From Nymphaea colorata (Eukaryota > Streptophyta > Magnoliopsida > Nymphaeales > Nymphaeaceae): 64,000 nt of DNA. Below, one piece after another: positions 8,135 to 55,905 of this stretch. The DNA is taken from assembly GCF_008831285.2 (NCBI RefSeq), contig NC_045141.1:18844848-18908847 (forward strand). Reading direction: 5' to 3'. The notes beneath the pieces are model-generated. The model was not told where the DNA came from and searched no databases. It was given only the letters and a program-made list of their open reading frames with translations. Position 1 is the first letter of the stretch. Each line of letters begins with the position of its first letter. The position numbers and the translations under genes are program-made.

Positions 8135-8320
8135 ACAGGGGCGGAGGGGCGCGTAGGCCATGGCCCCATCCTGGCTAATGAAAAAAAAAATTACATTGAA
8201 AAAAATATAATTTTTCGCCATGTATTTTTTGGATTTGAATTCAATTTGGCCTTATCCAGATCCAGAGGTTGGACTGTCGGCCCTTCCTGAAAAAAATCCT
8301 GACTTCACTCCTGGTTACAT
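8135..8320 (+). mobile_element. MITE-like element of the ggggcgga family
   Basis: Begins near caggggcggaggggcg, followed by gccatggccccatcctggc, an A-rich stretch, tattttttggatttgaattc and a tail with cttcactcctggtt. The same order occurs at 36470-36604 and, inverted, at 11495-11700. Non-coding. The repeated start and order support an element; exact ends are not fixed. Confidence 0.55.
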
Positions 8321-11494: not shown

Positions 11495-11705
11495 ACGGAG
11501 CGAGAATCTTTTTCAGGGGTGGGGCAAACGGTCCATCGAACTTATCCGGGTAGGGCCAAACTAAACCCGAATCCAAAAAATACATTACACAACTAAAACT
11601 TTTAAATTTTAATTTTTCTTTTTCAATTAGCTGGGGTGGGCCCACGGCCTGAGCGAGACCCCTCCCTCCACCCCAGGTAGTAGGGAAATGATACCAAGGG
11701 GTTTT
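11495..11705 (-). mobile_element. MITE-like element of the ggggcgga family, inverted copy
   Basis: Read on the minus strand, this gives ggggtggagggaggggtc, then ccgtgggcccaccccagc, an A-rich stretch, tattttttggattcgggttt and cccacccctgaaaaag. That is the same order as at 8135-8320. Non-coding. Confidence 0.5.
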
Positions 11706-14886: not shown

Positions 14887-16790
14887 ATGAGCAGCAGCCA
14901 ACTTGCTTCCGTTGCCCAAAGGTTTGTGGTTATTTCTCAGCTTTTCATTAGTTGGTACCTCTTTTTTTTATCCTTTAGTTTGCAACTTATTGTGCTGTTT
15001 CTTTATCTCAACTTTCCTTAACATTGTTCTGTTTTTGTTTTGGGAGGAGTTTTCCTTCTTGTTTGAACTAAAGTAGAGATGGACATGTGAAATTTCTTTT
15101 ATGCTTTTTTCTTTGGCTGGCTTCAAACTTCACAAAATCATGCACCTAGCAAAAAGGGGGCTCCCCTGTTTCCGGGTATTAAGGAGTACTTTGCGTGTAG
15201 ATAGCAGTTTCAGCAGCGTTCCATGTATAGGTCTCTGTTTCACAGTAAAACTATGACTGTCAAAAATCCTATATATGGAAGAAAGTTTGCTCCGAAAGAT
15301 TCTGTCTGTGGATTCAAAAAGGAAAATCCGAAAGTTTCACCAAGAATTCTTTAACTAATATGTTTCTAAACATCGCGGAAAAGGGCACATGATATTTTCA
15401 GCCAAAGAACGACGAATTTTGAAATCTGGTGTTCTAGCTTCTGCGGACACTAACAGGTTTCCTTCAAACATTACAATTTTCTCACAGTAAAATTGTACCT
15501 GTCAAGAATCCAATATATGGAAGAAAGTTGCTCAGAAAAATTCTGTCAATAGATCAAAAAGAAAAAACCGCTTCTTTAAAAAGTTTCACCAAGAATTCTT
15601 GAACTAATGTGTCCCTAAACATTATGGAAAGGGCCTATGATATTTCCAGCCAAGAAAACAGGGATTTTGAGAACCTAGTGTTCTAGCTTCTGCTCACACT
15701 GACAGGTTTCCATCATACATCGCTGCTTTCCTCAAAATTTCAGCCGCTATTAGCCATATGGGTGGCCTCACTGAAGATGGGAGCAAAGAGATCGTCCAAT
15801 AAAGCATGTAAATTGGTTAGAATATGGTTTTGAGTCCTGGTTTTAAATATATAACAAGAAGCTAGCAGAAGAACAATCTAGAGCATAGAAAACACAATGG
15901 CGGCTTCAAAATGCTAATAATGTGGGGATTGTTTCAAAATATTGGAGATATTTATGACTGGAATCTAGGCAACCCCAAACTGATAGACCGAGTTCCGTGT
16001 ATATACTTGAAGGCTAAAAGGGAAAGTAGCACTCATAACCGGCGCAGCTAACGGGATCGGCCTAGCTACAGCCAAGTTGTTCCATCGCCATGGCGCCAAG
16101 GTAGTGATCGCCGATATCCAGGACGAGCTGGGCGAGAAAGCCTACCATGAAATTAGCTCCAATGGCGGTGACGGTGCGATGTACGTCCATTGTGATGTCA
16201 CCAGTGAAGAAGACGTAGCCGGTGCCGTTGATGGCACTGTTGCCAAGTACGGCAAGCTCGATATCATGTACAACAACGCCGGCTACACCGGTCCGTCGAA
16301 CCCAAACGTGCCGGAGATTGACAAGACCCTATTCGAGAAGCTCTTGAGCGTCCACGTAGTTGGTGGCTTCCTTGGAGCCAAGCATGCCGCAAGGGTCATG
16401 ATTCCGGCGAGGCAGGGCAGCATAATCTTCACGGCAAGCGTGTGTTCCGTCTTAGGTGGCCTTGGCCTTCCGGCGTACTGCGCATCAAAGCATGCGATTG
16501 CGGGCTTGTGTAAGAGCATGGCCGTAGATCTTGGGCAGTTTGGGATCAGAGTCAATTGCATATCACCATATGCTGTGTTCACTCCTCTTATATCTGGATT
16601 CACAAATATGAATGAATCTGAGTTCTACAATGAAGCAAGCAAGCATGCCTTCCTGAAAGGGGTGAATCTTAAGCCGGAGGACGTAGCTGCAGCCGCACTG
16701 TACTTTGCAAGTGATGACTCCAAGTACACAAGTGGTCACAACCTTGTTCTGGATGCAGGTTTCACCATTGGTTTGAGAGGCAATTATTGA
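14887..16790 (+). CDS. SDR-B: short-chain dehydrogenase/reductase, SDR110C type, with Asn-to-His change in the catalytic tetrad
   Basis: Two exons: 14887-14921 and 16013-16790, with a 1091-bp GT-AG phase-2 intron. The split codon AG|G keeps the frame through QRLKGKVALITG. Product 270 aa, full length. Motifs in the same numbering as SDR-A: TGAANGIG (21-28), Asp46 (NAD(H) type), NNAG (99-102), Ser154, Tyr167, Lys171. The odd point is residue 126: SDR-A and the family have Asn (SVNVVGG), whereas this copy reads SVHVVGG, so the tetrad Asn is His. The frame is otherwise intact, and the TATA box and introns look normal. It may be active with altered catalysis, or a non-catalytic paralog. It is divergent from SDR-A 12.8 kb away. 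Family certain, substrate unknown. Confidence 0.92.
15239..15722 (+). repeat. Tandem duplication (~242 bp) inside the SDR-B intron
   Basis: Two successive copies start at about 15239 and 15481. Shared landmarks: cacagtaaaa, ctatatatggaagaaag / caatatatggaagaaag, agtttcaccaagaattctt, gtgttctagcttctgc, acaggtttcc. Divergence and small indels show that the duplication is not recent. Confidence 0.8.
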
Positions 16791-18059: not shown

Positions 18060-18230
18060 ACATGTGATGTTTGTGTTATTAGTTTCTCATTTATTTTATT
18101 TTTTTCTTATTTTTAGTTTTTCTAAAATTTTTAAAAAATAACAATTTTTTTTTCAAGCTCACCATATTATATTCCAGAAAAACCTCGCCATTTAAAACTT
18201 AGACATTTGTGACTATCAACTACTAACTCA
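18060..18230 (+). mobile_element. Terminal fragment of a transposon family shared with the 47.6-kb hAT region
   Basis: gtgttattagtttctcattt, cttatttttag, ttttcaagctcaccatatta, ccagaaaaacctcgcc, tttaaa and atttgtgactatca occur in the same order and spacing as at 47585-47755 and, inverted, at 55745-55905. Non-coding. Confidence 0.6.
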
Positions 18231-24336: not shown

Positions 24337-27300
24337 TGTAACGCTCATTGTTTTGGGCAGGTCGGGTCAGATCGGAACCCAGACCCGGACCCGAACCCTT
24401 GGCGTGAAAGAGCCCGACGCGAGGGCTCTTCTCCCTCGCCTTTCCCTCTTTTCTCTCATCTATCTCCTGGGTACTCACAGCCAGTGCAGAGAAGAAGAAG
24501 ACGGAGGTGGTGCAGGCGGTGGCTCGACCGGCAGCGGCGGAGGTGGTGACGGCAGCAGTGGAGGTGGTGACGGCAGCAGCGTGGGTAAGCTCTCCTCTGC
24601 TGCCCTATCTTCTCCCTCTCTCGTTATTTCTGCTGCCTTTCCCGTTTCCTCTTTTTCCCCTTTCGTCTGCTCTCCCTCGCATCTCTCTCTGCCCACGCTC
24701 ACTCTTTCTCTCGTCTCCTTCCCCTTTCTCATTCACGCTCACCTCACTGCTGGCCTTTTTCCCCTTTGACCGAACCCTCTCCCCTATCAGTCCCCCTCTG
24801 TTTTTCTCTCTCTCTCTCTCTACTCGACCTCCCTCTCTGTCCACGCTTCACGCTCTCTCCCCATTTTCTGCTTGTTTTTCTATTTTCTCCAATCGAGCAC
24901 TCTCTCTCACTGATTTTCACTATTTTATCACTGTTTGATCCGATTTCAGCTTGGGGATTTGTCCTCCCCCTCGTAACAGCGTTTAGAGAAGGCGAAGGCC
25001 TTGGTGGTGGCGGCATTGAAGGATTTTAGCCATTTGGGGACCACTTAGACTCGTGAGGTGGCTGCCGGGAGGATTACAACAGTTTAGACTTTCAAATTGG
25101 GGTGAGCAAGGAGAAATTGAACCTATTTTATGATATATTTTTCTTTGGAACTCGTATAATTATTGTTTGAGCATGCTAGAAGGTAGAATTGATAGTTAGG
25201 GAAGCATGCAAGCGATTTTGCTTTTGGGGAAAATGTGGGGTTATGATGGAGAAGCGATGATTCATGTGTTTGTTGATCTTTTAAGCATGATGAGTTGATT
25301 TTCGAAGTAATAGAGAAGCATGGTAGCGTTTATATGGCTGTGGGGAAGATTTAGGACGGTTTTGATGAGCGTGTAGCACACATTCTGGTGAACGGGTGCG
25401 TCTTGGAGTTAAACAGGGAAAGTGTACGTAAGTTGGTTGTGCCTTTGGAGTTGACGCCTTGATTAAGAAAAAGAAAGTTTGGAGAAAGGCGTTTGTGATA
25501 GATGGATTGATGGCTTTGAGTTTTGACTTTTGTTGGCACGGCTAGAAGTTGGGAAGTGGCCTATTAGAGGGCTTGTAGGTCGACACTACCCGTCGACACC
25601 CTCTTGAGGCGATGACACGTGCCTCAAGGATTTTGTTTTGTATTTGTTTGAATTGCTTAGGTATCTAGTAGGAATCTTATCATTTGTTTATGTTTGCAGG
25701 TATCCCGGGCACGTCCCGTCGACCTTGAGTTCGAAGCTCAAGGAGTTTTGAAGAGTTTTGTGAGCGCACCACATGTATGGCGACATTCCAGGCAAATCCC
25801 TGCTTGGGGCAAATGTGTGATTGTGTGCTCCTAGGATCAAGGGATCCTAGGATTGTGATGTTAATTGATTGACTGCTTTGTGAATGAGTATATGTATGTT
25901 GCTTATATGATATGAATGGGTTAGAAAGATTATTAGTCATTTGTTTTGAAAATGTTACGCATTGGCATGTGCATGCTAGAATTGATAGATGAGGCGGGGT
26001 ATCGAGTCGAGTGTCTCCTCGACCCCAATTGTGCATTAGAAAGCATTATAGAATGATAACTGCATAGGAGAGCTACGAGCCAACCGCAGATCGAGACTAC
26101 TCTCTGTGGATTGGCTAAGTTTTTCAAAGAGGTGATTGACGTGATTGATGTGAGGATTGATATGAATGTGTACGTTGTTGCATATGCATTGCCATGGGCA
26201 ACAATGCAAATGGATGAAATAGAGGGTAGTTGTACTCGTATTGTATGACGGCTAGCAATAACTGTTACTGTATGTATAGACCTCGTGTGGAGGCATTGGG
26301 AGGTGTAAGTGCACTCGTAGGGTGTATTAACCTCATGTGCTAGCCAGTCATCTTGTGAATGAGTAATGATAATGATAAAAAAGAAAACAAAAGGATAAGA
26401 GATGAGAGGCCAGTGGGATGTGGCTGTGTGTTTGGGAGACGTCCCGTTCTCGCCACTGGTCTCGCCTGTCAGAGCGCAGGCGGTGCAAGGCCCCAGGGTT
26501 CTGTTGTGTGTTGTGCTTGGAGCGTTGGACTCCTGCCTTCCCAACCTGGGTGTCCTAGGGAAGGCTGAGTATCTCACCTTGGACTTCACACATCCAGGGA
26601 TGAGTGCTCTACCGCTGCAGCGGGTGAAATGGATCCATACTGTTATGGGCCACCACGGGGGTTGTCTCTCGGCTGTAGGCCGCCCGCGGTGTGCATGTGC
26701 CTGTGTTGCACCCACAGGAACTGTTAATGCACTAAAGTTAATGAAAATGTAATGTGTTTGATAGAATGCATGTGACTGACGTATATGTGATTGATATGAA
26801 TGCAAGTGTTATGTTTAAGCATGCTTCGCATGTGACTGATGTTGTGTTAGTGTGGCCATCAAGTGGCTTTTACGTGTCGTACTCTGACACGACATGACGA
26901 TAGATGAGTTGATATTTGTTCTTTTATTTGAGCCTTACTTGAGAGAGTTTGACATTTTCCTAGCTTGTTGTCATACTGCGAAGGCTGAGCCTTCAGTTGT
27001 TTTCTTTTTCATGTTTTGGCGGACCCGGGGCAACAGGTTGAGCAGATGGCTTCACTCACGTCCTATTGGGGAGGTTTTGGGATTGTCGTTTGTAGTGTCG
27101 GCGCGTTATGTTTTGGTTTTATTGATGTCTTCTTTTTGTTAGGCATCAATGTTATGATTTTGGGGCATTTTGGTCATGCACATAGATGTGAATTTGTATG
27201 AAACAAAATGATTATATAAATGAAAGTTCGCCCCATTTTTTTGAATTGCTTGGCTCATCGTCTTTTTGAATTGTTAGGTAGTCACACCTCGATGCTTTAT

Positions 27301-27350
27301 GTTTAGAAAAAAAAAAAAGGGTTTGTGGGTTAAAAGGTCGGGGTGTGACA
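24337..27350 (+). mobile_element. Solo LTR, 3014 bp, probably Ty3/gypsy
   Basis: Starts TGTAACGC and ends GTGTGACA, flanked by the identical 5-bp target-site duplication acatc (24332-24336 and 27351-27355). No internal domain, protease/RT/integrase frame or second LTR is present, so it is a solo LTR left by recombination between two LTRs. Its length and higher GC fit the long LTRs of the Tekay/Del group, but that is inference. All long open frames in this interval (including 290 codons on the minus strand at 25933-26805) are non-coding LTR sequence. A CT tract lies at about 24806-24822 and an A-run at about 27306-27318. Confidence 0.9.
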
Positions 27351-27355
27351 ACATC

Positions 27356-28158
27356 AGCCAGAAATGTGTTACATACATGCACTATTGGCATTTAATGCAT
27401 ATCTAGCAATGGAAAAGTACATTCACGAAAGAAAGGTGAAAGTTATACCTCTTTTATATTCAACTTGGTGAACACCTCTTGCACAACATTGAAATTCTGG
27501 ATCATCATCAAAATTGACCTAAAAAAATTCCTACAAATAAAAGAAGAAACATAATGGATAAGAATCTCCACATCCAGCATAAAAAATAAACAACACAATT
27601 TACAAGCAAGGCCTACTTTGCGATTTCAAGAAAAGAAGCTTTTCGTGAGCAAGTGATTTTCCCTATCAATGAGGAAGAAAAGGGTGTGGAAGGAAGAAAG
27701 GAAAGTCAAAAAAGAAAAGTACCTCAGAGGCTTGCAACACCATTTAAGAACAACAACTGCTTGTGAGTCACAAATCAAGCACATTTAAAGAAAAGCCTAT
27801 TCAACCTTACCACATCCAATTAGATTTCCAAAATTGTAAAGAGAAATAAGACAGAAAGCCCTTAGTATAACACTGTGCCCTTCCTGCAGCCTTTATCTTA
27901 GCTCCCTGCAACCATTATTAATTAGAATAGAAAAAGAAAAGTAAACACAAACATAGAAGAGCAAAGTACCATCAACAAATTTTAGCCCCACACGTACCAA
28001 AAGAAGAACATTTGCATCTACATAATACCACCAGGCCACTGTGAACTGAATAGTGCTCTCCAAGTTTCATTGAGGAATGTCTTTCCGTGATTTTCAATCT
28101 CCTCATGCAATAAAGAGACATCATTTTGCCAGTGTCCTTATGAGGGTCTGACATCAGC
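27356..28158. other. Intergenic or intronic DNA
   Basis: No gene established. A minus-strand exon-like stretch at about 27449-27522 is bounded by an ag before it and gtataa after it and reads SILMMIQNFNVVQEVFTKLN, but no partner was found. AT-rich otherwise. Confidence 0.25.
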
Positions 28159-28336
28159 CGGCTGCCGAATGTGGCTGGATTTTTTTTTTCGTCTCGCAAA
28201 AAACCGTGATATAAGGTGCATCAGTGACCACAATTGCTCGGCCATGGTCTTTTAGGAACAAAATGCACCTTTCACGACAGTTTTTAGCGATACAAAGTAG
28301 AAACTAAAGACCATCAAGCCACATTCGGCTGTCTGA
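28158..28336. mobile_element. MITE with long inverted arms
   Basis: gctgccgaatgtggctgg at about 28160 and aagccacattcggctgtc at about 28317 are inverted. The inversion continues inward: cgcaaaaaaccgtgatata then aggtgca on the left against tgcacctttcacg then acagtttttagcg on the right, around a loop of about 45 bp. This stem-loop design is typical of non-autonomous DNA transposons; the gtgaaaggtgca-type arms resemble CACTA-related elements. Open frames on the minus strand here come from the element. Confidence 0.7.
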
Positions 28337-29509
28337 TTTCAATTTTTCTCTTTTTATACATATATAGAAGCGAATCCTGCCAATGTAGCTAATCAAATAC
28401 AACTTTTTGATAAAATACTAAAGTCTTCATCATTTATTTAGGTAAGATACCTTCTCTTCGAAAATTAATCTGAGGTTGCAAGATCCTTTCAGCCAAAATT
28501 GAGCTTGCATCTAAGAAGCCATGCGAGTACCTAAGCAAAAGATAGATTTTTTTTTTTTTACCAGGTAGAAAAAATGTAATTTCAAGTTTCCACAGAAGAT
28601 ATGAGAAAATTTACATCTCCAGAATACTGGTTAGAAAAAATCAACCCAAGAAACAAGGCAATTTTACCCACATCTCCATGTCTCCTCCATATATTCACCA
28701 AGTTACTGCCATATTTTTTTTGGCTTTGCTGCCATGCTCCTTTCTCAAACAAGTGATCTAACAGAACTATGATTAGCTTCCATGTCACTAATTCTTGTCT
28801 GAGTAATGCTCAGAGCCGTATCTCTTGGTGCCATATGAAAGCAAATCATAACCAAGAATATGAAAGCAAATCATAACCTAGAAAGTTGAAAACTTTTGAA
28901 CAAATTATAGAACAAGAGAAAAACAGCCGATGGATGAAATGGACCTGCAACGGGTAACAGCTTAGAAGGTAAAAATTCATTCTTTTGGATTTGCAACCAA
29001 AAGCCACACTAGGTGAAACATGACTGGATTATGCAAACAACTTTCCAAGCATCTACAGCAGTTTCATAAGTAGTGACTGAGAAGAGAAGGAAAGAGCCTT
29101 AACTTTCTTAGAAACCATTTAGCAACATAACTAATCTTTCATAGAAATTGCAGTTTCATTTAGCGTGTGCAACAAACCCTTTAAGCCACTACGTTTCACC
29201 TTAGTGGAAGTGGAAGAGTGAGGTCTCATAAGTGCTTCTAAAGATGGCACTCACAAGCATTAATCAATGTCCAGTAAGCATAACGATGTTTGGAAATCAT
29301 TAAGCAAATTAAAGATACAACCTTAAGTGCCCCTACTCATTCCTCAACGCTAGTTATTTTCCCTCAAACATTTCTAAAATTTGCAATAATTTACACATCA
29401 TTCTTGAGAATTCATACATGATCCTACTATTACAATATATATATAATCCAACCATTCCCAAGCTTCCTTCTTCTAACTATAACCGTGAAACATATTTTTT
29501 GCATTGTCA
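28337..29509. other. AT-rich DNA, no gene seen
   Basis: Both strands lack a frame with a recognisable domain. A near-duplicate word (tatgaaagcaaatcataacc) occurs twice at about 28835 and 28860. Confidence 0.3.
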
Positions 29510-29700
29510 CATACGTCTGGTACGGGTATCATACGGCAAGGAATTTCTCGGGTATAATACGGCAAAGTTGTATATCTCGGGAATATCTCAGGAAAATCTC
29601 GGCAAATTTTTTAAAAATTTAAAACATTTAATAAACCCCAAAAACTATAAAAAAATAAAAATTAATAAAAAAAATATGAAAAAAATGTGTATAATACGCG
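29510..29700 (-). mobile_element. Decayed transposon terminus (tctcgggtataatacgg family)
   Basis: tctcgggtataatacggc at about 29546 is the inverse of gccatattatacccgaga at 47687, and is followed by the same kind of A/T-rich tract. Several tcgg(gt)aatatctc words nearby are degenerate repeats. Non-coding. Confidence 0.45.
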
Positions 29701-29734
29701 TCTTATGTGACAATGATTTTTTTGGGCAAGAAAT

Positions 29735-30040
29735 ATGTGGGGCTATATTGATGGTACCAAAGAAGACCCTCAACTTACTCTTACAAAGAAAGTAGATGGA
29801 AAAGAGGTAGAATTGACTAAAAATGAGAAAGAAACTACTCGTAATGAACATAATAAGTGAAAAGCATGGAAATGTGAGCATCATAAAGCCATTTATTGGC
29901 TTCAAGCTGGAGTTGATTCAACAACTCAAGCACAAATATCAAATTTTCAACTAGGGTCAGAAGCAAGCAATTATCTAAAAGAAACCATTATATTGAAAGA
30001 TGATGGCCACAAAGCCAAGTTGAAAAAGAGTATTACCTAA
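29735..30040 (+). pseudogene. Ty1/copia gag fragment, broken
   Basis: Reads MWGYIDGTKEDP at the start and, further on, KAWKCEHHKAIYWLQAGVDS, the pattern of the N-terminal gag (UBN2-type) domain of copia elements. An in-frame TGA interrupts it at about 29858 and the frame ends at 30038-30040. No protease, integrase or RT follows; the tandem array begins about 70 bp downstream. A dead relic. Confidence 0.65.
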
Positions 30041-30109
30041 TCTAGCAAAGAGAAAGAACTATTAGAGAATACCATGGGGAGATCATGCTAAGAGAAAGAA
30101 CTATTAGAG

Positions 30110-33100
30110 AATACCTTATCTAATTCAAAAATTGTTCGATATCGATCTATCTGTGGGTTTAGATCAGTAGACTTACCTGATCCATAAATTGTTGGATTTT
30201 GATGTAGTTGCGGGCCTAAATCAATGGTCATATCAAATCCAAATATTGTTGGATTTGGATTAGGTTGTCGGTCCAAATTAATGGTCTTATACAAGATAGA
30301 AATTGTTGGATTTGGATATAGTAGTGGGTGTCGATCAGTAGTCTTATCTGATCCAAAACATGTTGAATTTGGATATGGTAGTGTGTTTAGATCAATGGTC
30401 TTATCTGATCCAAAAACTATTAGGTTTGTGTCCGGTTGTAGATAGATAACATCAATCTTATCTGATCCAATTATGGTAGTGTGTTTGGATCAATGATCTT
30501 ATCTAAGTCCGAAGTAGCTAGATTAGGATCTAATTTGGGTCGAGATCAGTGGCCTTATCTGATCTAAAAAAAATTGATTCAGATATCATTGTGCATATAT
30601 ATAGTGGTCATATCTAATCCACCCATTGTTTAATTTGGATCAAGTTGTCAATCTAGATCAATGGTCTTACCTGATCCAAAAATTGTTGGATTAATATATT
30701 GCAGTGAGTCTAAATCAATAGTCATATATGATCGTACATTGTTGAATTTTGATATGGTAGTGGGTCTCAATAAGAGGTCTTTTTTGAGCATCAGTAGTCT
30801 TATCTGATGCAAAAATTGTTGGATTTTGATTTGGTTGTAATATAGATCAGGAGTCTCATCTGATCCAAAAATTATTGGACTTCAATCTCGTTGTAGGCCA
30901 GCCAGTAGTCTTGTATAATCTAAAGATTCTTAGATTTAGATTTAGTTGTCGGTCAAAATCAACTGCCCTATCTGACCTAGAAACTATTGGATTTAGATTC
31001 GGTTGCGGGTATAGATCAATGGGGTTACCAAATTCAAAAATTGTTCGATATCGATCTATCTGTGGGTTTAGATCAGCAGTTATACTAGATCCACAAATTG
31101 TTGGATTTTGATGTAGTTGTGGGCCTAAATCAATGGTCATATCAAATCCAAATATTGTTCTAATTGGATTTGGTTGTCGGTCCAAAGTAGTGGTCTTACA
31201 TAAGATGGAAATTGTTGGATTTGGATATAATAGTGGGTGTCGATCAGTAGTCTTATCTGATCCAACATATGTTGACTTTAGATATAGTAGTGCGTTTAGA
31301 TCAGTGGTCTTATCTGAGCCAAAAACTATTAGACTTGTGTCCGGTTGTAGATAGAAATCAGCAGTCTTATCTGATCCAGTTATGGTAGTGTGTTTGGATC
31401 AATGGTCTTATTTAAGTCCGGAATAGCTAGATTTGAATCTAATTTTGGGTCGAGATCAGTGATCTTATAGATCTAAAAAAAATTAACTTAGATATGGTTG
31501 TACTTATATATAGTGGTCTTATCTAATCCAGCCATTGTTGAATTTGAATCACGTTGTCAGTTGACATCAATGGTCTTACTTGATCTAAAAATTGTTGGAT
31601 TAATATATTGTAGTGAGTCTAGATCAACACTCATATATGATCCGTAAATTGTTGAATTTTGATATGGTAGTGGATGTCAATGAGTGGTCTCTTCTGAGCA
31701 TCAGTAGTCTTATCTGAAGCAAAAATTGTTGGATTTTGATTTGGTTGTGATATAGATCAGGAGTCTTATTCGATCCAAAAATTATTGGACTTCAATCTCA
31801 TTGTAGGCCAGCCAGTAGTCTTGTATAATGTAAAGATTCTTAGATTTAGATTTAGTTGTCGGTCAAAATCAATTGCCTTATGTGACATGAAAACAATTGG
31901 ATTTAGATTCGGTTGTGGGTCTAGATCAATGGGCTTACATGATTCAAAAATTGTTCGATGTCGATCTATCCATGGGTTTAGATCAGTAGTCTTACTTCAT
32001 CCACAAACTGTTGGATTTTGATGTAGTTGTGGGCCTAAATCAATGGTCATATCAAATCCAAATATTGTTGTAATTGGATTTGGTTCTTGGTCCAAATTAG
32101 TGGTCTTACATAAGATGGAAATTGTTGGATTTGGATATAATAGTGGGTGTCAATCAATAGTCTTGTCTCATCAAAAATATGATGACTTTGGACATGCTAG
32201 TGTGTTCAATGGTTTTATCTGATCCAAAAACTATTAGACTTGTGTCTGGTTATAGATAGAAATCAGCAATTTTATCTGATCCAGTTATGGTAGCGTGTGT
32301 GGATCAATGGTCTTATCTAAGTCCGAAATAGCAAGATTTGGATCTAATTTTGGGTCGAGATCAGTGGTCTTATTGATCTAAAAAAAAATAACTCAAATAT
32401 GGTTGTGCTTATATATAGTGGTCTTATCTAATCCAGCCATTGTTGAAATTGGATCAAATTAACAGTCGAGATCAATGGTCTTACCTGATCCAAAAAATGT
32501 TGAATTAATATATTGTAGTAAGTCTAGATCAATAGTCATATATGATATGTAAATTGTTGAATTTTGATGGTAGTGGATCTCAATGAGTGATCTCTTCTGA
32601 GCATCAGTAGTCTTATCTGATGCAAAAATTGTTGGATTTTGATTTGGTTGTGATATAGAACAGGAGTCTTATTTGATCCAAAAATTATTGGACTTCAATC
32701 TCATTGTAGGCCAGCCACTAGTCTTGTATAATGTAAAGATTCTTAGATTTAGATTTAGTTGTCGGTCAGAATTAATTCCTTATGTGACCTGAAAACAATT
32801 GGATTTAGATTCGGCTGTGGGTCTAGATCAATGGCCTTACCTGATTCAAAAATTGTTCGATGTCGATATATCTGTGGGTTTAGATCAATAGTCTTACCTG
32901 ATCCACAAACTGTTGGATTTTGATGTAGTTGTGGGGCCTAAATCAATGGTCATATCAAATCCAAATATTGTTGTATTTGGATTTGGTTGTCGGTCCAAAT
33001 TAGTGGTGGATGGAAATTGTTGGATTTGGATATAGTAGTGGGTGTGGAACAGTAGTCTTATCTGATCCAAAATATGCTGAATTTGGATATGGTGGTGTGT

Positions 33101-36100
33101 TTAGATCAGTGGTCTTATCATATCCAAAAAACTATTATACTTGTGTCTGGTGGTTGGAGATAGAGATCAGCAGTCTTATCTGATCCAGTTATGGTAGTGT
33201 GTTTGGATCAATGGTCTTATCTAAGTCCGAAATAACTAGATTTGGATCTAATTTTGGGTCGAGATTAGTGGTCTTATCTGATCTAAAAAAAATTGACTCA
33301 GATATAGTTATGCATATATATAGTGGTCTTATCTAATCCAGCCATTGTTGAATTTGGATAGTGTTGTCAATCTAGATCAATGGTCTTACCTAATCCAAAA
33401 ATTGTTGGATTAATATATTGTAGTTAGTCTAGATCAATAGTCATATATGATCCGTAAATTGTTGAATTTGGATATGGTAGTGGATCTCAATGAGTGGTCT
33501 TTTTTTAGCATCAGTTGTCTTATCTAATGCAAAAATTGTTGGATTTAGATTTCGTTGCGATATAGATCAGGGGTCTTATCTGATCTAAAAACTATTGGAC
33601 TTCAATCTCGTTGTAGGCCAGCCAGTAGTCTTGTATAATCTAAAGATTCTAAGATTTAGATTTAGTTGTCGATCAGAATCAATTGTCTTATCTGACTTGA
33701 AAATTATTGGATTTAGATTTGGTTGTGGGTCTGGATCAATGGGCTTACATGATTCAAAAATTGTTCGATGTCGATCTATATGTGGGTTTAGATGAGTAGT
33801 CTTACCTGATCTACAAACTGTTGGATTTTGATGTAGTTGTGGGCCTAAATCAATGGTCATATCAAATCCAAATATTGTTGTAATTGGATTTGGTTGTCGG
33901 TCCAAATTAGTGGTCTTACATAAGATAGAAATTGTTGGATTTGGATATAATAGTGGGTGTCGATCAGTAGTCTTATCTGATCCAAAATATGTTCTTTGGA
34001 TATGGTAGTGTGTTTAGATCAGTGGTCTTATCTGACCCAAAAACTATTAGACTTGTGTCCGGTTGTAGATAGAGATCAGCAATCTTATCTGATCCAGTTA
34101 TGGTAGTGTGTTTAGATCAATGGTCTTATCTAAGTCTGAAATAGCTAGATTTAGATCTATTTTGGGTCGAGATGAGTGGTCTTATATGATCTAAAAAAAA
34201 TTGACTCAGATATGGTTGTGCATATATATTGTGGTCTTATCTAAGACAACCATTGTTCAATTTGGATCACGTTGTCAATATAGATCAATGGTCTTACCTA
34301 ATCAAAAAATTGTTGGATTAATATATTGTAGTGAGTCTAGATCAATGGTCATATATGGTCCATAAATTGTTGAATTTGGATATGATAGTAGATCTCAATG
34401 AGTGGTCTTTTCTGAGCATCAGTTGTCTTATCTGATGCAAAAATTCTTGGATTTTGATTTGGTTGTGATATACATCAGGAGTCTTATCTGATCCAAAAAT
34501 TATTGGACTTCAATCTCGTTCTCGGCCAGCCAGTAGTCTTGTATAATCTACATATTCTTAGATTTAGATTTAGTTGTCGGTCAGAATCAATTGTCTTATC
34601 TGACCTGAAAACTATTGGATTTAGATTCGGTATAGATCAATGGGCTTACCTGATTCAAAAATTGTTCGATATCGATCTATCTGTGGGTTTAGATCAGTAG
34701 TCTTACCTGATCCACAAATTGTTGGATTTTGATGTAGTTGTGGGCCTAAAGCAATTGTCATATCAAATCCAAATATTGTTGTATTTGGATTTGGTTGTTG
34801 GTCCAAATTAGTGGTCTTATATAAGATAGAAATTGTTGGATTTGGATATAGTAGTGGGTGTGGATCAGTAGTCTTACTTGATCCAAAATTTGTTGCATTT
34901 GGATATGGTAGTGCGTTTAGATCAGTGGTCATATACGAGTCTGAACTTACAGGATTTAGATCTAATTGTGAATCGAGATCAATGGTCTTATCTGATCCAA
35001 AACTATTAGATTTGTGTTTGATTGTAGATATAGATCAGTGGTCTTATCTAATCCAATTATTGTTGGATTTTGATCTAGTTGTGAGTTTGGGTAAATAGTC
35101 TTGTCTGGTCGATAAGTTGAGAGCTTAGGACATGGTAGTGAGCCTAAATTGGTAGTCTCATATGAACCGAAAATTGTTGAATCTAGATATGGTAGTAGGT
35201 CCCAATCATAAGTCTTATCTGGTCCAAAAATTGTCAGATTGGGATCTAGTAGTGAGTTTAGAATAGTAGTCTTATCAAACGCAAAAATTGTTGGATTTGG
35301 ATTTACTTATGGGTATATATCAGGAGTCTTATTTATTGGACTTCAAATTGGTTGTATCAACTGTGTTGTCTAATTTGAAAACTATTGAATTTAGATTCAG
35401 TTGTGGGTTTAGATCAATTGGCTTATCTGATTCAAAAATTGTTGAATATGGATATGGTAGTGGGTCCCGATCATGGGTCTTATCTAATTCAGAAATTGTT
35501 AGATTTGGATCTAGTCATAGGTTTAGAACAATGGTCTTATCTAACGCAAAACTTGTTGGATTTGGATTTGGTTGTAGGTGTACATTAGGAGTCTTATATA
35601 ATCTAGAAATTATTTGACTTTAAATTGGTTGTAGGCCAGCCAGCAGTCTTATATAATGTAAAGATTGATAGATTTAGACAGTCGTCTGTCGGAATCAATT
35701 GTCTTGTCTAATTTGAAAACTAGATTTAGATTCAGTTGTGGGTCTGGATCAATGAGCTTATCTGATTCAAAAACTATTGAATATGGATCTATTTGTAGGC
35801 ATAGACCAATGATCATATTTGATCCAAAAATTTGTTGGATTTGGATCTGGTTGTGGGCCTCAATCAGAGACGTTGTCAAATTTAGATATTGTTGGAGTTT
35901 GATATGTTAGTGAGTATAGATCAATAGTCTCATCTGATCCAAAGATTGTCGAATTTAGATATGGTAGTGTGTTTGGATCAGTGGTCTTATCTAAGTCTGA
36001 AATTGTTAGATTTGGATCTATTGTGGGTCAAGATCAGGGGTCTTATCTGATCAAGTTTTTGTTGGATATGGGTTTGGCTGTCAGTCTAGATCAATGGTCT

Positions 36101-36640
36101 TATCTGATCCAGTTTTTGTTGGATTTGGGTTTGGTTGTCAGTCAAGATCATTTGGTCTTATATGATCCAAATATTGATTGATTAAGATACGGTAGTGAGT
36201 CTAATCAACAGTCTTATCTAATCCAAAATTTGTTGAATCTAGATATGGTAGTGTGTCTTATCTCAGTCTGAATATTACTGGATTTGGATCTAACTATGGG
36301 TTCAGATCAATGGTCTTAATTTATACAAGATTGTTGGATTCATATATGGTCGTTGATATCTATTAGTGGTCTTAATGATCCAATTTTTGTTGGATTTGGA
36401 TCTTGTTGTCAGTCTAGATTAGTGGTCTTATCTAATCTAGAAATTGTTGGACTAGGATATAATAGTGAGCAGGGGCGAAGGGAGGGGGGGGGGCCTAGGC
36501 CATGGCCCCACCCTGGCCAATGAAAAAAAAAACTTTTACATTGAAAAAAAATATTATTTTTTAATCACTATATGTATTTTTTATATTTAAATTCAGTTTG
36601 GCCCATCAATAGCCTTATCTAATATTGAAATTGTTGAATC
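30110..36640. repeat. Satellite array: ~57-bp monomers in a ~907-bp higher-order repeat
   Basis: The monomer is about 57 bp, built on gatca(a/g)tggtcttatctgatc, then caaaaattgttggatttgg, then atatggtagtgggttta, with variants. About sixteen distinct monomers form a higher-order unit. The landmark ttcaatctc...taggccagccagtagtctt recurs at 30881, 31791, 32694, 33601 and 34509, spacings of 910, 903, 907 and 908 bp. The array enters in mid-unit at about 30110. After about 35.1 kb the order breaks down into irregular monomers. A MITE sits inside at about 36472-36604 and one monomer continues after it. Because 57 is a multiple of three, frames with repeating 19-residue peptides stay open on both strands; I treat these as by-products. 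Confidence 0.93.
36472..36604 (+). mobile_element. MITE of the ggggcgga family inserted in the satellite array
   Basis: An aggggcgaagggagg start, a run of about 10-12 G, gccatggccccaccctggcc, an A-rich stretch, tgtattttttatatttaaat and tcagtttggcc. A satellite monomer is interrupted before it and resumes after it (catcaatagccttatctaat). The element matches 8135-8320 in order. The poly-G run is unusual and could be mis-sequenced. Confidence 0.65.
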
Positions 36641-39250
36641 TAGTTGTAAAAAAACCAAATTCTCAAAGGTGGTGCTATATTTTAAAACAATTTTTTATCT
36701 AGTGAAAATTCTATCTACAGAACATCAGCTACAATTCCTCGACTACTTCAAAATTTGTCCTAAAAAGATACTAAGTTCTCTAAGAAAAATTGATATTAGC
36801 ATGCTAAAAATAATCAATTAAACAACCAAATTTGAAAATGAAACACAAATAGTATATTCTACTCTATTCCCACATGTCTAATCACTCCTTGCACTTTAAG
36901 CTCAATAATTCAACAATTCATGCCAGAAAAAGGCAATTTAAAACCACTAATCATATAAACACTAGGAAAATGAGGAAGACTAAGTTGAACCCTATGTTTA
37001 CTAACTACAAGATATAAAATCTCACACAAAGAAACAAATCAAAGGATTAAAGCAAGTAAAAATACTTACCTTTCCACCAGTTCCCTGCAAGACTAATGAG
37101 AAAGATACAAACTTCCTAAAAGAAAGTGATGAATACTAAATAATGTTGCAAATCTAATCTAAGAAACCCAACCAAAAATTGGTTTAAAAGTTCGAGATCA
37201 AGAAAAAAAAACATAATTTATGGAAGTGGTTTCATATTTTTAAACAATTTTTTAATCAATTGAAAATTCTGGCATAAAAAATGCTACTAGCATGTCAAAA
37301 ACAGAAATAAACACTTGATTAAACAAGCAAAACTCAAAAATCAAACACAAATAGCCTATTCGAACAGCCACAGCCACACCTACATTGGCACTTGTACCCA
37401 TACTGATGTGACACAGGTATCCAAGAAACATATTATATTACTCTTTTATATATTTTGCATCAATATTTTCTTTTGACTTACCTACATTGTTTGTTTTTTT
37501 GGCTGTAGTAGCAATTGGTTAGTTCTACTCCAAATGTCTTCTTTATTCAGTCTACCAATAAGGGACTGTTCTTCCCATATAGCATCTGTTCCGAGTCCAG
37601 TTTCTATGATCATGTAAGAAATATATTCAGGTTTTTATTCCCTATGGTGAATTTGACAGTGATAATTGAGACTTCAAATTGGTGATTGCAAGGCTATGAT
37701 TCCTTGCCATGTTTTTGCTCTTGTCAACAACAAGAGTACAATCCTAATTCTTTGCAAATTACAATACCATGGCTATATTTGGATTCTTAATAAAGATGGA
37801 CCCCACTTGAGGATAAACAAATCACAACTTTTATGCAAAGCAGCTATCTTTGAGGTACCCTTTTTCTAGTAAAACAAGAACTTTCCACTTAGTTATATCA
37901 GCCATCTAAACTTTCAGTGTTTTGACCTTCTTAGGAACTTGTAGAAACTAGAAGTAATCAAGATCATAAAGTTTCATGAAGATGGAAACAACAAGACTCT
38001 CACCATATGTTAGATGCATGTCTGTAGAAACTTCATAGTTTCCACATCCATGTTTTTTCCCTGATGAGATTTTGTCAATGAAACTTTTTTCTGACGCATA
38101 GGGACTTACCTTTTATGCATTTAGAATCTAGTTCTGTGATTGTAGAAAGGCCACTCTCCGGGTGAGATTTGCATCCAAGTGACATGTCCGATTGTATGGG
38201 TCCAGCAACATGCATGTGAGCTAGCAATTAACACATTTAAGCAACAAAATCAGCCTTACTCATTCTCAAATATTTTGTACATTTCATAAATAGTGCACAT
38301 GTAGAGCTTCCATCTTATCTACCATAACATTCATTACACATGTGACAGTTCAAACATATAATATCTTCAACTAGGGCCATAACGTTAACTATGCATGCAA
38401 ACGAGTTACAAATATACCATCTTTTGAGCTAGTTATATGTGCATTTCTTAGGAACACAAGCACATTCATGGACAATATCTTCAATAACATAAAAACAACT
38501 ATAAAGTCTTCCAATAAATTTCACCTTCATTTGCCTTTGAAAAAAAAAACACTCTAGAATGAAATCACCTCTGGGACATGAAGGCAGATAAGTTCATAGA
38601 TCTATCTCACTTGGTTACGATGGAAGCCAAAAAAGATTCACCGAGCATAAAAGCAAAGCAAAAGTCCAATATTCACATAACATGTGGTACATAAATAATG
38701 TGCTCATGCAACTAATTTCATCATGTGTCATATAGGCTATAGGTCAATAATCTCGCATCTTGAAACATTGCACCAAATTACCAGAAAATCCTATAGATAT
38801 AGCCTGCTAAGATTACATCTGATTGAATACACTAATCATTTATAAGAACATAGCTTTTGATTTTTCAACCAAGATGAAGAGAACAAGGTTCCCAATTCAG
38901 TACTTATGCAGATGGCAGACTGTTGTAAGTTTCATTTGGAAAAATTAGAAATATTACACCACCTCCTTTCATCAATTCCTACAGGACCAGCCCAGTCAAA
39001 GCACCACATCATATGCCACCAAATGGTGCTTTATCTCAGCCTTTTTGGGGTCTTAGGAAGATGGCCATCAAGGTATTCCTTATCAACTATTTCTTGCATA
39101 AGCTGTAGTCCTCGTGAGGTGGAAAATGATAAACAAATCTAAGTTACAGCAAATTATCAGTGTCGAAAACTGGCAATAATATCGAGACGAGTACATAAAA
39201 AAACATCAAAAGACAAGCAAGGAGAAATTTCAGTTCAGTGTAGCGTAGTG
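36641..39250. other. AT-rich intergenic DNA, no gene called
   Basis: Two loosely similar blocks (about 36650-36840 and 37190-37350) share ttttaaacaattttttatc/aatc, gaaaattct, atgctagcat-type words and aaatagcctattc/aaatagtatattc, indicating an old duplication. A plus-strand exon-like frame near 38948-39078 contains NITPPPFINSYRTSPVKAP and ends before a gt, but has no partner or known family. Confidence 0.3.
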
Positions 39251-39254
39251 TTTA

Positions 39255-39905
39255 AAGCAATGTTATAAAAGGCATAGCGTATCGCGTATCGGTCAGGCCG
39301 ACCTATACGCCGTATTGTAAAATTAATTTTTTAATTTCAAAAAATATTTAAAAATCAGAAAAAAATAGACAAAAATCTGAAAAAAATGAACAAAAAATCA
39401 GAAATGAAGAAAAATAAAAAATGTATTCAAATATAAAAAAAGATCATTTATGTGGAACATTCATGTGTATACTATCAACAACACATTCAAAAATAAGAAA
39501 TCAAATATTCAAATTAACATAATAAGCATCCATCACAATTTTAAACTTGAAAATTTTATAAAATTTTAGGACTGAGTCTTAAGACTTGGAGTTTTGGGAC
39601 TTAGATTACATCACAATTTTATAAGTTCAAACATACAGTTATCATCTTTCATGATTCAACGATGATATCTTCCAAATTGATGAATCCTCGGTTAATTTTT
39701 ATGAAAATAAGCCAAATCTCTCTCTCCTATGTCTATTGGAGCCTTTAAATACAAAAAGAGAGAGGGAGGAGTGTTTAAACTTTTAAAAAATAAGAAATTT
39801 TATGTTTTCTCCCGTATCGTACGATACGGAGGTGTATCGCCCGTATCGTACGATACGGGCGATACGCACGCGTATCGTGTATCGAACACGTATCCTATAG
39901 GTTTC
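39255..39905. mobile_element. DNA-transposon-like element with CGTATCG-rich palindromic ends
   Basis: The left end has aatgttataaaaggcatagc, then gtatcgcgtatcgg; the right end has a cluster of cgtatcgtacgatacg palindromes (about 39813-39900). The stretch between is AT-rich, with direct repeats of aatcagaaaaaaat-type words and no transposase. The left start resembles the hAT-type terminus at 12172. I call it a non-autonomous hAT-like element. Boundaries are approximate. Confidence 0.5.
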
Positions 39906-40658
39906 GTCGACCAACAGAAGTGTGTTATATCCATCATTTGCAGTCATTAAGAAGTAGACTCCGACAAAAGTCAAATTGACAATAAGCAGCCTGCCAGTCC
40001 GACCAACTATACTGCACCACCCAGATATGATCAATAAGTAGATTTATATATTTTTATATTAGTTTTTATACGAACCATCCATCTAAATTAAATCAAACAC
40101 TTATATTGATTATGATGGATCCAAGGTATGACGTACTTGTGTTTATACGTGAATTGTAGAATAATATTGTTGATTGTGGAGGCAAATGTATAAAAATGAA
40201 AGGATAAAAAAAGAGGGTCTTAAAAGAAGGGTATATTTATTTTATGGAAGGTATTTTTTGTTATTTTTTATTGAAAATAAATTGCAATTCGAGAGATTAT
40301 CTTAAAATTGAGTGCCTGTTTCTTGACTTTTAAAAATTAGACTTGCCCAAATATTAGACGGTTTTTTATATATTTTCATAAATTTGCTATGACAATCTAT
40401 TAAAATTACTTATACATGTTGAAATCCATTTGATACACCGGATCGTTTAGAAGAACGATATGGCTCCAGTATCAATACCCACAATATTGACCCAGAGACG
40501 GCAATCGCACCGACCAAGAACCGAACCTCGATATCGAATATTTGGATCAGATCAAGAAAGCAAGTTTGAACACCCAGTATTGGAACTTACGTACTGACCC
40601 GACCCGTTTAACTGGACGAATCAGATTTGATGGCGGTATTGCTCTCCTAGTCATCCTC
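39906..40658. other. Promoter-side intergenic DNA of the C2 gene
   Basis: No gene. AT-rich until about 40440, then balanced composition toward the C2 gene promoter. No specific regulatory motif beyond the TATA box could be supported. Confidence 0.3.
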
Positions 40659-40666
40659 TATAAATA
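40659..40666 (+). promoter_or_regulatory. TATA box of the C2 gene
   Basis: TATAAATA lies 104 bp upstream of the start codon, predicting transcription start near 40690 and a leader of about 70 nt. Confidence 0.75.
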
Positions 40667-40762
40667 CTCGGGAACGCCCGGATCCGTCGAGTTCTTGTGT
40701 TAGTTCCCACCGAGTCTTCGTCCTCCTTGACTTCTCGCCTGTCGGATTCTTCCCGATCCAAA

Positions 40763-41334
40763 ATGCCGATCGGCAAGCTCGAAGTCCTCCTCGTGGGAGC
40801 CAAGGGGTTGGAGAACACGGATTTCCTCTGTAAGGAAAAAATTTCTGTCGTCATTCTTCCTCTCTTGTTTTTTTTTCCTGATGGATCAAGATCCCGGCCC
40901 TCTGCTTGCAGATTGATTGTTCTCTGTTTTCCTTTCGATCTTTAGGCTTTAGCTTGTTGCTTTGACGTATTTTAAATGTTAACCTTGGTCTGCCTCTGTA
41001 GTTCTAAATCGGTTTCTGTAGTTCTAAACCTTGGTTTGCCTTTTTTCTGAAGAAAATGAGTTTTGACGGGCCTTTACGTGTTATGTGCATACGTGAGATC
41101 GATTGTCCTGCCTTTTTGTTATTGAATTTTTCTAATACCTGTAGATACCATCACAACTTTGTTCTGATTTCGTGTAGATTGTGGCAATGCGTGCCATTTA
41201 CTCGCTGATATTATTCTTTCTCCTGTTGTTTAACTGTTTTCTTTTTCCAAGATGGTTTTATTTGAGCGGTGTGGGAATTGGGATCTACCTATTCCTATAT
41301 GTGTAATGTGTGTGTGTGTGTGTTTATGCTCACG

Positions 41335-44649: not shown

Positions 44650-47600
44650 TTAACTGTAATTTTGGAAAGTTTTATATGGTAGTTTACTAGTTTGGGTAAA
44701 AAATGAATAAAACGTAAAACTTAAAAACATTTCCACGTTTCGAGTCTTCGACAAAGGTGGCGGACGAGCTTTTTTAGGGTATAGGGTTTTCAGCGTTGGG
44801 AACGTTAACGGCGGAGCAGACCGGCGTCTTTTTTTACGTCGAGTTGCAGCAACATTAAACCTCCGACGGACTGGTGCATTTCCCGGCACCGTGCCGACAG
44901 CTTTCCGGCACCGTGCAGACCTCCGACAGCTACATCCGACTACGCTCGCGTGCTCAGGTAGGATTTCCGTTTTGGTTTCTACTTTTTGTTTATGTCCGTT
45001 AGTTTCTAGTTTTTTGTTTTCAATCATTAATTTCAAGTTTTTGTTTTCTGTTAAGTTGCATATGTCTGTTAGTTTTCTACTTTATAGTTTATACTTTATA
45101 CCTCTTGTTTGAGTCGATTTGCATATGTGCATTAAAAAGTAGAAACTGTGTCGCTGTTAACTTTGTAGTTTGTACGTTTGTTACTTTGTTAGTATTTTTT
45201 TTTTTTTTTTACCTTTACGGTTTTACTTTATCATTTACATATGATTTTTTAAAGATGAAACGAGAGTCAGATTTTATTGCTTCAGGACCTCACGTGTTTG
45301 ATACTTGATAACTGCAGAAAATGCCTAGATTGAAGGATATATTTTGGTCACATGCAATTGAAAGTGATGAAGGGAGTTGACTTGCAAATTTTGTTCTGAG
45401 CATATACCAGAGGAATTGTACGATTTAACATTTAAGTATCATTTGGCTGGGATTCACGGGAACAATGTTGTCGCATGTCGTAACGTGCCTGAAAATATCA
45501 AGCAAATGGCAATCAAAGCTTGTAGAGTTATTGAGGACAGACCCGTGAAGAAGGGGAGAATGCAAAGTGGAAGTGGATCACATTTAAGTGTAGGTTCATC
45601 ATGTTCAGTTAACAATTTTTTTCGTGGAACTTCGTCTGAAGGAGGAACAGAACAGGACAAGGCCAAAAACAAACAATTTCAGGCATGATGAAGAAAGTGA
45701 AAAAGGATTTTGTAGATAAACTTCTTCTTAAAGCTATTGTGTTGAACAACTTACCTTTCAACTTACTTCGATCAGTGGATTTCAAGAATTTTGTTGTTGG
45801 TGCTACAAACTTTGGCCCACGATATATTTTTCCAAGCACTGAAATAACAAGAACGAAACTACTAGATGAAGCAAAGAAAGATGTTCTATTATACGTTGAT
45901 GAAATGAAGAAAACATGGACACAATATGGATGTACAATTATGTCTGGTATTTGGAAAGATACGATTAAAAACAGGTCCTATATAAACTTGTTTGTGAGCT
46001 CTCTAACAGGCACCATATTTTGGAAGGCAAGTCATGTTGAAAAAGGTCCTAAAAATGCAGAATTTATAGTTGACTTTTTATCTTCAACTATAGAAGAAAT
46101 TGGGGCAAACAATGTCCTACAGATTGTTACCGATAATGGAAGCAATTACAAAAAAGCAAAATATATTCTTGAAGGAAAATAACCAAACATTTTTGCTACG
46201 TCTTGTGCTGCTCATTGCATTGACTTAATGCTTAAAGACATTGATAGTTTAGAAGATGTGGCAAATATTATGTGCAAAGCAAGGCAGATTGTCAAGTTCA
46301 TATATAATAAGCAACAAGCTTTAGATATAATGAGAACTTATACAAAGGGAAAGGAGTTGAGGAGGCCTGGTGTGACTAGATTTGCCTCCCAATTTATTTG
46401 TTTGGATTCTATCTTAAAACGAGAAGAGGGCCTCAGGTTTATGGTTGCCTCCAATGAATGGAGACATGTAGAAGACATTGAAAAAAATGATGCAAAAGAA
46501 CTTACAAGCTTCGTTCAAAATGAAGATTTTTGGAGAAAGGGAAAAGAAATAATCAGGTTTGTTGAACCATTAGCGAGAGTACTAAAGATGGTAGATGGGG
46601 AAGGGGCCACAATGGGTTATTTATATGAAGCACTTGATAGAGCTAAAGAAGCTATCAAGAATGCAAGCAACGGCAGGAGAGAAAAATATATGCCATATTG
46701 GAATATAATTGATAAGAGATGGAATCGTAATTTGCATAGTCCCATACATGTCGCAGCAGCTTATCTAAATCCTCATTTGTTTTGGAATAAAATAGTAAAG
46801 ATGAATGAAGAAGTTTTGAAAGGTTTGAACTTAGTAACAAAAAATCTTCTTCATGAGGATTCTGCAGATATGGGTCTTGAATTGATCAAATATCACAACA
46901 GAAATCCTACATTACTTCGTGATGGGTTAGCCATGAGTGTTATTGACATTTATCATCCTCTCATCCACGTAAGTGTCTCACTTTTACTGAATTGTTGATG
47001 ATTGGTTAAATATTTTAATTACAAATTTACAACTGTATGATTCACAATTTTGTTTGTTTGTTCTTTAAATAATGTTAGTTGTTTGGTGGGAGATATTTGG
47101 ATCTTCTGTTCCTATTCTTCAAAGAGTAGCAATCAAAATTTTAAGCCAGCCATGCAGTGCATCAGCTTGCAAAAGAAATTGAAGTGCATTTGAAGCTGCT
47201 AATACGAAGAAGAGAAGCAATTTTTTACCATCTAGATTAACCGATTTGGTATTCATTAGAATGAATATGCATTTGCAAAGCATGGCTGCAGAAATAAAGA
47301 AGATAAATGCAAATCCAATCTATATTGACCATGTGAATCCATTTCCAGAAGCAGAAAATATAGAGGTTGGCTTGTCTTCAGATTTAGAAGAAGAAGATGA
47401 TGAAGAATGCAGACCAAGTAGAACAAATGAAGAAGATGACTCTACTTCATGGGGTGAAGATTAATGATGGATATGTTCTTTTTTTTTATTTAAGAATGAT
47501 TTAAATTGTGTTGCAAAGCCATGAGGGCTATAAACTTGATATTACTTATGCATTAGTTCGATTCTGATTCTGATTCTCGTTGTCTTATTAGTTTCTCATT

Positions 47601-47760
47601 TATTTTATTTTTTCCTAATTTTTAGGAATTTTTTAATATTTTTTATTTTTTTAAAATACCGTTTTTTTTCGTATTTTTCAAGCCCGCCATATTATACCCG
47701 AGAAAAACCTCGCCGTTTAAAGCTGCGAGATGTTATTTGTGACTATCAGTTGCACTAATA
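44650..47760 (+). mobile_element. hAT-superfamily DNA transposon, decayed, approximate extent
   Basis: The interval holds a leader of higher GC (44750-44960, ending in a good splice donor CAG|gtagg at about 44958), a transposase pseudogene (45321-47464) and an A/T-rich tail at 47580-47755. The tail is repeated elsewhere in the window at 18.1 kb (direct) and at 29.5 and 55.8 kb (inverted). The terminal inverted repeats and 8-bp target duplication expected of hAT elements were not located, so the ends are estimates. Confidence 0.55.
45321..47464 (+). pseudogene. hAT transposase pseudogene (BED zinc finger + DUF659 + hAT dimerisation region)
   Basis: Pieces in order: the N-terminal start (45321), then the BED-type finger CKFC...KYHLAGIHGNNVVAC in another frame from 45377; a DUF659-type block at 45685-46182 (LYVDEMKKTWTQYGCTIMSG, TDNGSNYKKA); the central RNase H-like region at 46183-46968 (SCAAHCIDLML ... 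GVTRFASQF); an intron with a canonical donor at 46969; and the dimerisation region at about 47081-47464 (WWEIFGSSVPILQRVAIKIL, CSASACKRN) with an acidic tail ending SWGED. Damage: frame changes near 45375 and 45684, in-frame TAA at 46180-46182, and TGA at 47180-47182 where the family has Trp (RNW to RN-stop). Not functional. Confidence 0.88.
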
Positions 47761-55734: not shown

Positions 55735-55905
55735 AATCAAGTCGCATAATTCATAGTCACAAATAATGTATGAGAGTTTTAAATGGCAAAATTTTTCTTG
55801 GGTATAATATGATAGGCTTGAAAAAAATAAGATTTTTTAAAAAAATTTAAAAAACTAAAAATAAAGTAAATGAAAAAATAATAACACAAACATCAAAAGA
55901 TAAGT
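55735..55905 (-). mobile_element. Terminal fragment of the hAT-associated repeat, inverted copy
   Basis: Read on the minus strand: gtgttattattttttcattt, ttttcaagcctatcatatta, cccaagaaaaattttgcc, tttaaaact and atttgtgactatgaa, in the same order as at 18060-18230 and 47585-47755. Confidence 0.6.

Follow-up and report, generated by a model that had tools for sequence, protein, structure and literature searches.

Our analysis of a 64-kb stretch of DNA (hereafter, the window) revealed what is very probably a locus-scale minisatellite, or short satellite, that resides in gene-bearing DNA, preserves at least two higher-order generations and most likely has no sequence-specific function. The repeat consists of diverged 57-bp monomers arranged in a fixed order of 16, and this order is present in five full copies and a partial sixth. 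The array is an island of approximately 6.5 kb with unrelated sequence on both sides, and a probable C2-domain gene lies approximately 4 kb away.

Wraparound alignment to the 57-bp consensus monomer, TGTTGGATTTGGATCTAGTTGTGGGTCTAGATCAGTGGTCTTATCTGATCCAAAAAT, produced a single local alignment spanning positions 30115-36467 of the plus strand, which comprises 114 segments (the first and last of them partial) that are 79% identical to the consensus. The alignment score of 3035 compares with 14-21 for five shuffled versions of the array. When the window was scanned on both strands in 8-kb chunks (16 chunk-and-strand combinations), the two plus-strand chunks holding the array scored 995 and 2145, compared with 12-27 for the remaining 14, such that no chunk of the 64-kb window outside the array exceeded the background score. 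An ungapped self-comparison of positions 30110-36460, in which every lag up to 3700 was included, gave its strongest signal at a lag of 57, with 48% identity relative to a median of 28% across lags (sd 1.3%). The next strongest peaks occurred at lags of 114, 171, 909, 1810, 2718 and 3627, and no 19-bp sub-period was seen (identity of 0.284 at lag 19). Tandem Repeats Finder likewise reported rows with a period of 57 bp, as well as 56 and 114 bp, between positions 30153 and 36269. The tandem structure is agreed upon by Tandem Repeats Finder, self-comparison, self-BLAST and wraparound alignment, and the original prediction of a satellite with 57-bp monomers and a longer period near 907 bp is borne out.

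With 57-bp monomers, 114 segments and a length of 6.4 kb, the array falls within the bounds of a minisatellite or short satellite, for which monomers of 6-100 bp (PMC2820488) and arrays of 0.5-30 kb (PMC8122249) are given. Among the matches listed in the open-licence literature none appeared to describe this 57-bp repeat, which leaves uncontradicted the earlier suggestion that the family had not been described, and one scan of viral contigs for the monomer pattern returned no match. The region also displays strong strand asymmetry, as GC skew is 0.22-0.28 and AT skew is -0.09 to -0.14 across positions 30001-36000 when measured in 2-kb steps.

Five full higher-order units, each composed of 16 monomers, occupy the left part of the array on the plus strand: unit 1 at 30133-31041 (909 bp), unit 2 at 31042-31951 (910 bp), unit 3 at 31952-32853 (902 bp), unit 4 at 32854-33761 (908 bp) and unit 5 at 33762-34662 (901 bp). 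A partial sixth unit, comprising slots 1 to 5, extends from 34663 to approximately 34937; over 34663-34940, its identity to units 1-5 is 0.872-0.920. Slot 1 thus begins at 30133, 31042, 31952, 32854, 33762 and 34663, with spacings of 909, 910, 902, 908 and 901 bp. The two-level order that had been proposed, in which 57-bp monomers form about five units of approximately 16, is upheld both by the period peaks and by the alignment of the units. The periodicity of about 907 bp likewise stands, although the individual spacings had been given as 910, 903, 907 and 908 bp. Identity among the five full units ranges from 0.892 to 0.924 over all ten pairs, and each unit is 0.944-0.961 identical to the 911-bp unit consensus. 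By comparison, the consensus sequences of the 16 slots have a mean identity to one another of 0.71 and a maximum of 0.86. Units that are 89-92% alike, built from slots that are 71% alike on average, constitute a higher-order repeat.

Individual slots are also marked by their lengths. Slot 7 is short in all five units (45, 46, 46, 46 and 46 bp), which agrees with the prediction that one monomer in every unit is shortened, but not with the predicted length of about 40 bp. Slot 12 is long in all five (77, 77, 75, 77 and 74 bp) owing to an insertion of 17-20 bp. The relationships between units rest on 28 sites at which two units differ from the other three, and at 11 of these the neighboring units 2 and 3 share the minority state, compared with at most 4 for any other pair. 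This distribution agrees with the prediction of local duplication. Each unit additionally carries 20-34 sites unique to itself, as would be expected if homogenization had slowed or stopped.

To the right of the partial sixth unit, the array continues through positions 34938-36467 of the plus strand as a sequence that we interpret as an earlier generation of this higher-order repeat that has since been rearranged. When jumps are permitted, alignment to the unit consensus decomposes this part into ten blocks that are 0.75-0.87 identical to the consensus and that follow slot order internally: 7-12, 4-5, 12-13, 13-14, 15-16-1, 7-8, 12-13-14-15-16-1-2-3 (35534-35901), 11-12, 6-12 (35957-36253) and 7-11. 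In a jump-allowing test of slot order, the stretch 34948-36467 scored 748 relative to a mean of 672.7 for permuted orders (sd 15.5), the stretch 35534-36467 scored 486 relative to 426.7 (sd 10.0), and the stretch 34948-35533 scored 274 relative to 253.7 (sd 8.2; permuted maximum 272). None of 200 permutations was as high in any of the three cases. Unit 3, which served as a positive control and is itself part of the consensus, scored 786 relative to 622.2 for permuted orders. When jumps were disallowed, permutations scored as high in 3 of 60 cases for 34948-36467, 4 of 60 for 34948-35553 and 0 of 60 for 35554-36467, and thus slot order is weakest in the stretch adjoining unit 6.

The retention of slot order in these blocks suggests, most simply, that the 16-monomer order predates the expansion that yielded the five units. 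The right part had previously been called disordered, a description that does not simply hold given blocks that retain slot order at 75-87% identity and a permutation test in which 0 of 200 were as high. Of the two histories offered with that description, the first, in which a young expansion arose inside older monomeric sequence, is a poor match to the data, as the right part does not have a plainly monomeric structure. Moreover, the expansion is not very young, because the units lie 4-6% from their consensus and pairs of units differ by approximately 8-11%. A decaying satellite edge is the better fit of the two.

At the left junction (30048-30115, plus strand), the 26-bp stretch AAGAGAAAGAACTATTAGAGAATACC can be read in the sequence at 30048-30073 and again at 30090-30115, such that the two copies are 42 bp apart and the second adjoins the first monomer. 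At the right border, a monomer is interrupted by an insert at 36468-36603 (left end approximate; the match itself covers 36479-36603) that is related to sequences at 8137-8251 and, in inverted orientation, at 11544-11665. The three copies (36479-36603, 8137-8251 and 11544-11665) represent a short dispersed repeat that is G-rich at its start and A-rich in the middle. Beyond the insert, a last monomer remnant occupies 36604-36648 of the plus strand, where a scan of 36590-36700 gave a score of 18 ending at 36648, whereas 30 shuffles reached 13 at most. Two further repeats were observed in the flanking DNA. A 65-bp direct repeat lies just to the right of the array (36648-36712 and 37205-37270, 77% alike), and an inverted repeat based on CCGTATCGTACGATACGG, with 22-nt arms that are 95% complementary, occurs at 39808-39878. 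Motifs loosely resembling the latter seem, by eye, to recur near 29530-29600.

The surrounding DNA holds several genes and fragments of mobile elements. Two short-chain dehydrogenase genes, at 703-1467 on the minus strand (approximately 0.7-1.7 kb) and 16007-16771 on the plus strand (approximately 16.0-16.8 kb), lie in opposite orientation and share 80% DNA identity; a 249-bp unit in two tandem copies that are 80% alike (15240-15720) is found approximately 300 bp upstream of the second ORF. Closer to the array, a reading frame at approximately 42.3-42.5 kb matches structure 1wfj, annotated as a 'putative elicitor-responsive gene' (E=6e-11), and the sequence at approximately 40.76 kb is presumably the first exon of this elicitor-responsive-like gene, encoding a C2-like N-terminus for which no Pfam match was found. 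Ten ORF stretches around the array yielded no Pfam match. An ORF at 45.6-46.2 kb encodes a DUF659-type transposase (E=2.5e-29), and the similarity continues more weakly as far as 47.0 kb in a second DUF659-type ORF whose match is below the curated cut-off. Together these two ORFs, which are in the same frame and split by a stop codon, form a transposase remnant at 45640-46998 of the plus strand that we take to be hAT-like. Finally, an epimerase-type ORF starts at 59.5 kb. These sequences, together with a probable Copia-type fragment next to the array, suggest that the DNA is from a plant.

The anatomy of the array is compatible with a history in which a 57-bp array would have formed and its copies drifted apart, after which out-of-register exchange, by unequal crossing-over or by slippage repair, would have copied whole blocks of 16 monomers. 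Such block copying probably took place at least twice, with a later round giving rise to the five similar units. Afterwards the units would have acquired mutations independently with little homogenization, while mobile DNA inserted at the edge. We infer exchange from the arrangement of the repeats, and rolling-circle copying of the 16-mer would leave a similar trace. If the array has any effect, copy-number instability or local silencing would be the indirect route. The monomer count covers the 64-kb window, and a wider genomic family or a transcript of the array may exist and would be compatible with the data.

Most work on higher-order organization concerns centromeric arrays of megabase size, which are hard to assemble. 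We tentatively suggest that 16-monomer amplification, preserving the same order, could have occurred independently at least twice at this locus in the neighborhood of genes, and hence that kilobase-scale higher-order repeats might form and re-form in the absence of centromere drive or heterochromatin. If this is true, the locus would offer a compact and completely assembled example of how higher-order satellites originate. The presence of a later generation beside an older, rearranged one in a short intergenic array makes the steps directly readable, and it indicates that higher-order organization alone does not point to a centromere.

There is a small chance that tandem repeats inside an LTR retrotransposon instead gave rise to the array, by expanding and outlasting the element. 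Satellites are known to have arisen from short arrays inside LTR retrotransposons, and in a Lathyrus study, nine satellites are reported to derive from such arrays within elements identified as Ogre (PMC7004042). Furthermore, the sequence immediately to the left of the array (approximately 29726-30037) seems to hold a degenerate gag fragment of Copia type, where matches to Retrotran_gag_3 (E=0.0052) and Retrotran_gag_2 (E=0.055) both fall below the curated cut-offs. However, the gag piece has no similarity to the monomer above chance, as positions 29700-30113 gave a best score of 12, equal to the shuffled maximum of 12. Nor did any of the 16 repeat pairs detected outside the array constitute a direct pair close on both of its sides, in a search (BLAST E up to 1e-4, low-complexity filter on) that a short or AT-rich LTR could escape. 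One direct pair does span the array at a distance (18071-18218 and 47580-47748, 76% alike), but a third, inverted copy at 55747-55895 identifies this pair as part of a dispersed family, the second such family in the window, with copies of approximately 150-170 bp. The array resembles the Ogre-derived satellites in being short and adjoining retrotransposon sequence, whereas the Lathyrus arrays are placed inside Ty3/gypsy Ogre elements, downstream of gag-pol, and here a Copia-type gag piece occurs alone and outside the array (PMC7004042). LTRs and an ordered set of element domains were not found around the array, where the weak gag match on the left was the only such feature and the right flank was scanned in part. 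A crude scan for CACTA-type ends found CACTAC once in 26001-30120 and GTAGTG once in 36640-40700, and among the 25 of 169 inverted repeats listed for 26000-41000, one pair links the left flank to the right (27 nt, AT-rich, 74% complementary). An origin inside a transposon is thus not supported, given that the BLAST search detected no direct pair flanking the array closely and that the gag piece lacks monomer similarity.

We give considerably less credence to the array being a decayed protein-coding repeat, an idea raised by the correspondence of 57 bp to 19 codons and by a forward consensus frame (frame 2, counted from 0) that is open and reads LDLDLVVGLDQWSYLIQKL. Divergence by codon phase among 44 monomers is 0.135, 0.259 and 0.220, such that in the LDLDLVVGLDQWSYLIQKL frame position 2 is the least variable and position 3 the most, and this signal has p=0.023 by column permutation; a naive calculation that assumes independence of sites gives p=1.7e-9 for these monomers and p=0.036 when the five units are compared. 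Two other frames of the consensus, a second forward one and a reverse one, are likewise open, with 35 stops observed relative to 45.2 simulated (sd 5.5) and 34 relative to 50.6 (sd 6.0), and an open reverse frame of 180 amino acids is present at 30856-31398. When the consensus base is accounted for, however, the phase signal among the 44 monomers weakens to p=0.069, the three remaining sets that were tried give 0.056-0.18, and stops are not depleted in the frame that carries it (85 observed, 82 simulated). Reverse frames that contain stops in the consensus deviate even more strongly (153 relative to 205.5 simulated, and 212 relative to 175.4), which indicates that the stop simulation misses context effects. 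Slots of 52, 46, 56, 55 and 77 bp depart from 57 by amounts that are not multiples of three and disrupt the frame, as expected of non-coding DNA; with stops in every frame as well, no open frame maintained by multiple-of-three indels was found. No Pfam match at the curated cut-off was obtained for the two open forward consensus frames (four copies each) or for the long reverse ORFs compared (two of four), and weak matches of the consensus frames to RPN5_C, ROQ_II, PUF and DUF2514, all below curated cut-offs, were disbelieved. A coding origin is unlikely, although a weak codon-phase signal remains.

It is very unlikely that the monomer is a structured RNA or a protein-binding dyad that has been repeated on purpose. 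The consensus does carry the complementary pairs GATCTAG/CTAGATC and TTTGGATC/GATCCAAA, and it folds better than its shuffles (z of -3.3, -2.4, -3.0 and -4.4 for two registers per strand, with 0, 8, 2 and 0 of 200 shuffles as good), as does the whole of unit 2 (z of -2.4 on the plus strand, 0 of 20 shuffles as good; -2.1 on the minus strand, 1 of 20). Despite this favorable folding, compensatory stem changes are absent among the sequences compared (21 of the 44 monomers drawn from the slot consensus sequences and the right part), as 80.3% of cells are paired in one stem relative to 79.4% after shuffling and 75.0% relative to 75.4% in the other, and the window contains no Rfam match at the gathering threshold; a hairpin or RNA function is therefore not supported.

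An equally faint prospect is that the array is a relic of a satellite family from a centromere or pericentromere, or the edge of one, a reading suggested by its higher-order organization and its older, rearranged flank, which recall the edges of alpha-satellite arrays. The likeness to centromeric higher-order satellites noted in the original prediction holds for form but not for size or setting: the array spans only 6.4 kb, sits about 4 kb from the probable C2-domain gene and meets unrelated sequence at both borders, and the monomer score is at background elsewhere in the 64-kb window. The genes and mobile-element fragments in the window make a centromere unlikely, and on the basis of array size and surroundings this reading was set aside.

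The locus-scale minisatellite we favor can be compared with several known satellites. As in the alpha satellite of primates, diverged monomers occur in a fixed order, the block they form has been tandemly copied, and an older flank is present. Alpha satellite, however, is composed of 171-bp monomers in megabase arrays, whereas the monomers here are 57 bp, the array is 6.4 kb and a centromere role is unlikely. The complex repeat BvMSat07 of Beta vulgaris offers a parallel in which short monomers likewise form a larger complex unit; in its description, this unit is compared with the higher-order structure of satellites, and duplication together with replication slippage is given as its explanation, although it is built from 5-bp subrepeats rather than from 57-bp monomers in a 16-mer (PMC2820488). 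The FokI satellite of Vicia faba resembles the present repeat in monomer length (59/57 bp), and the two are set side by side by length and not by sequence. FokI differs in constituting 2.3% of the Vicia faba genome and in forming long-arm bands on five chromosomes (PMC5895790).
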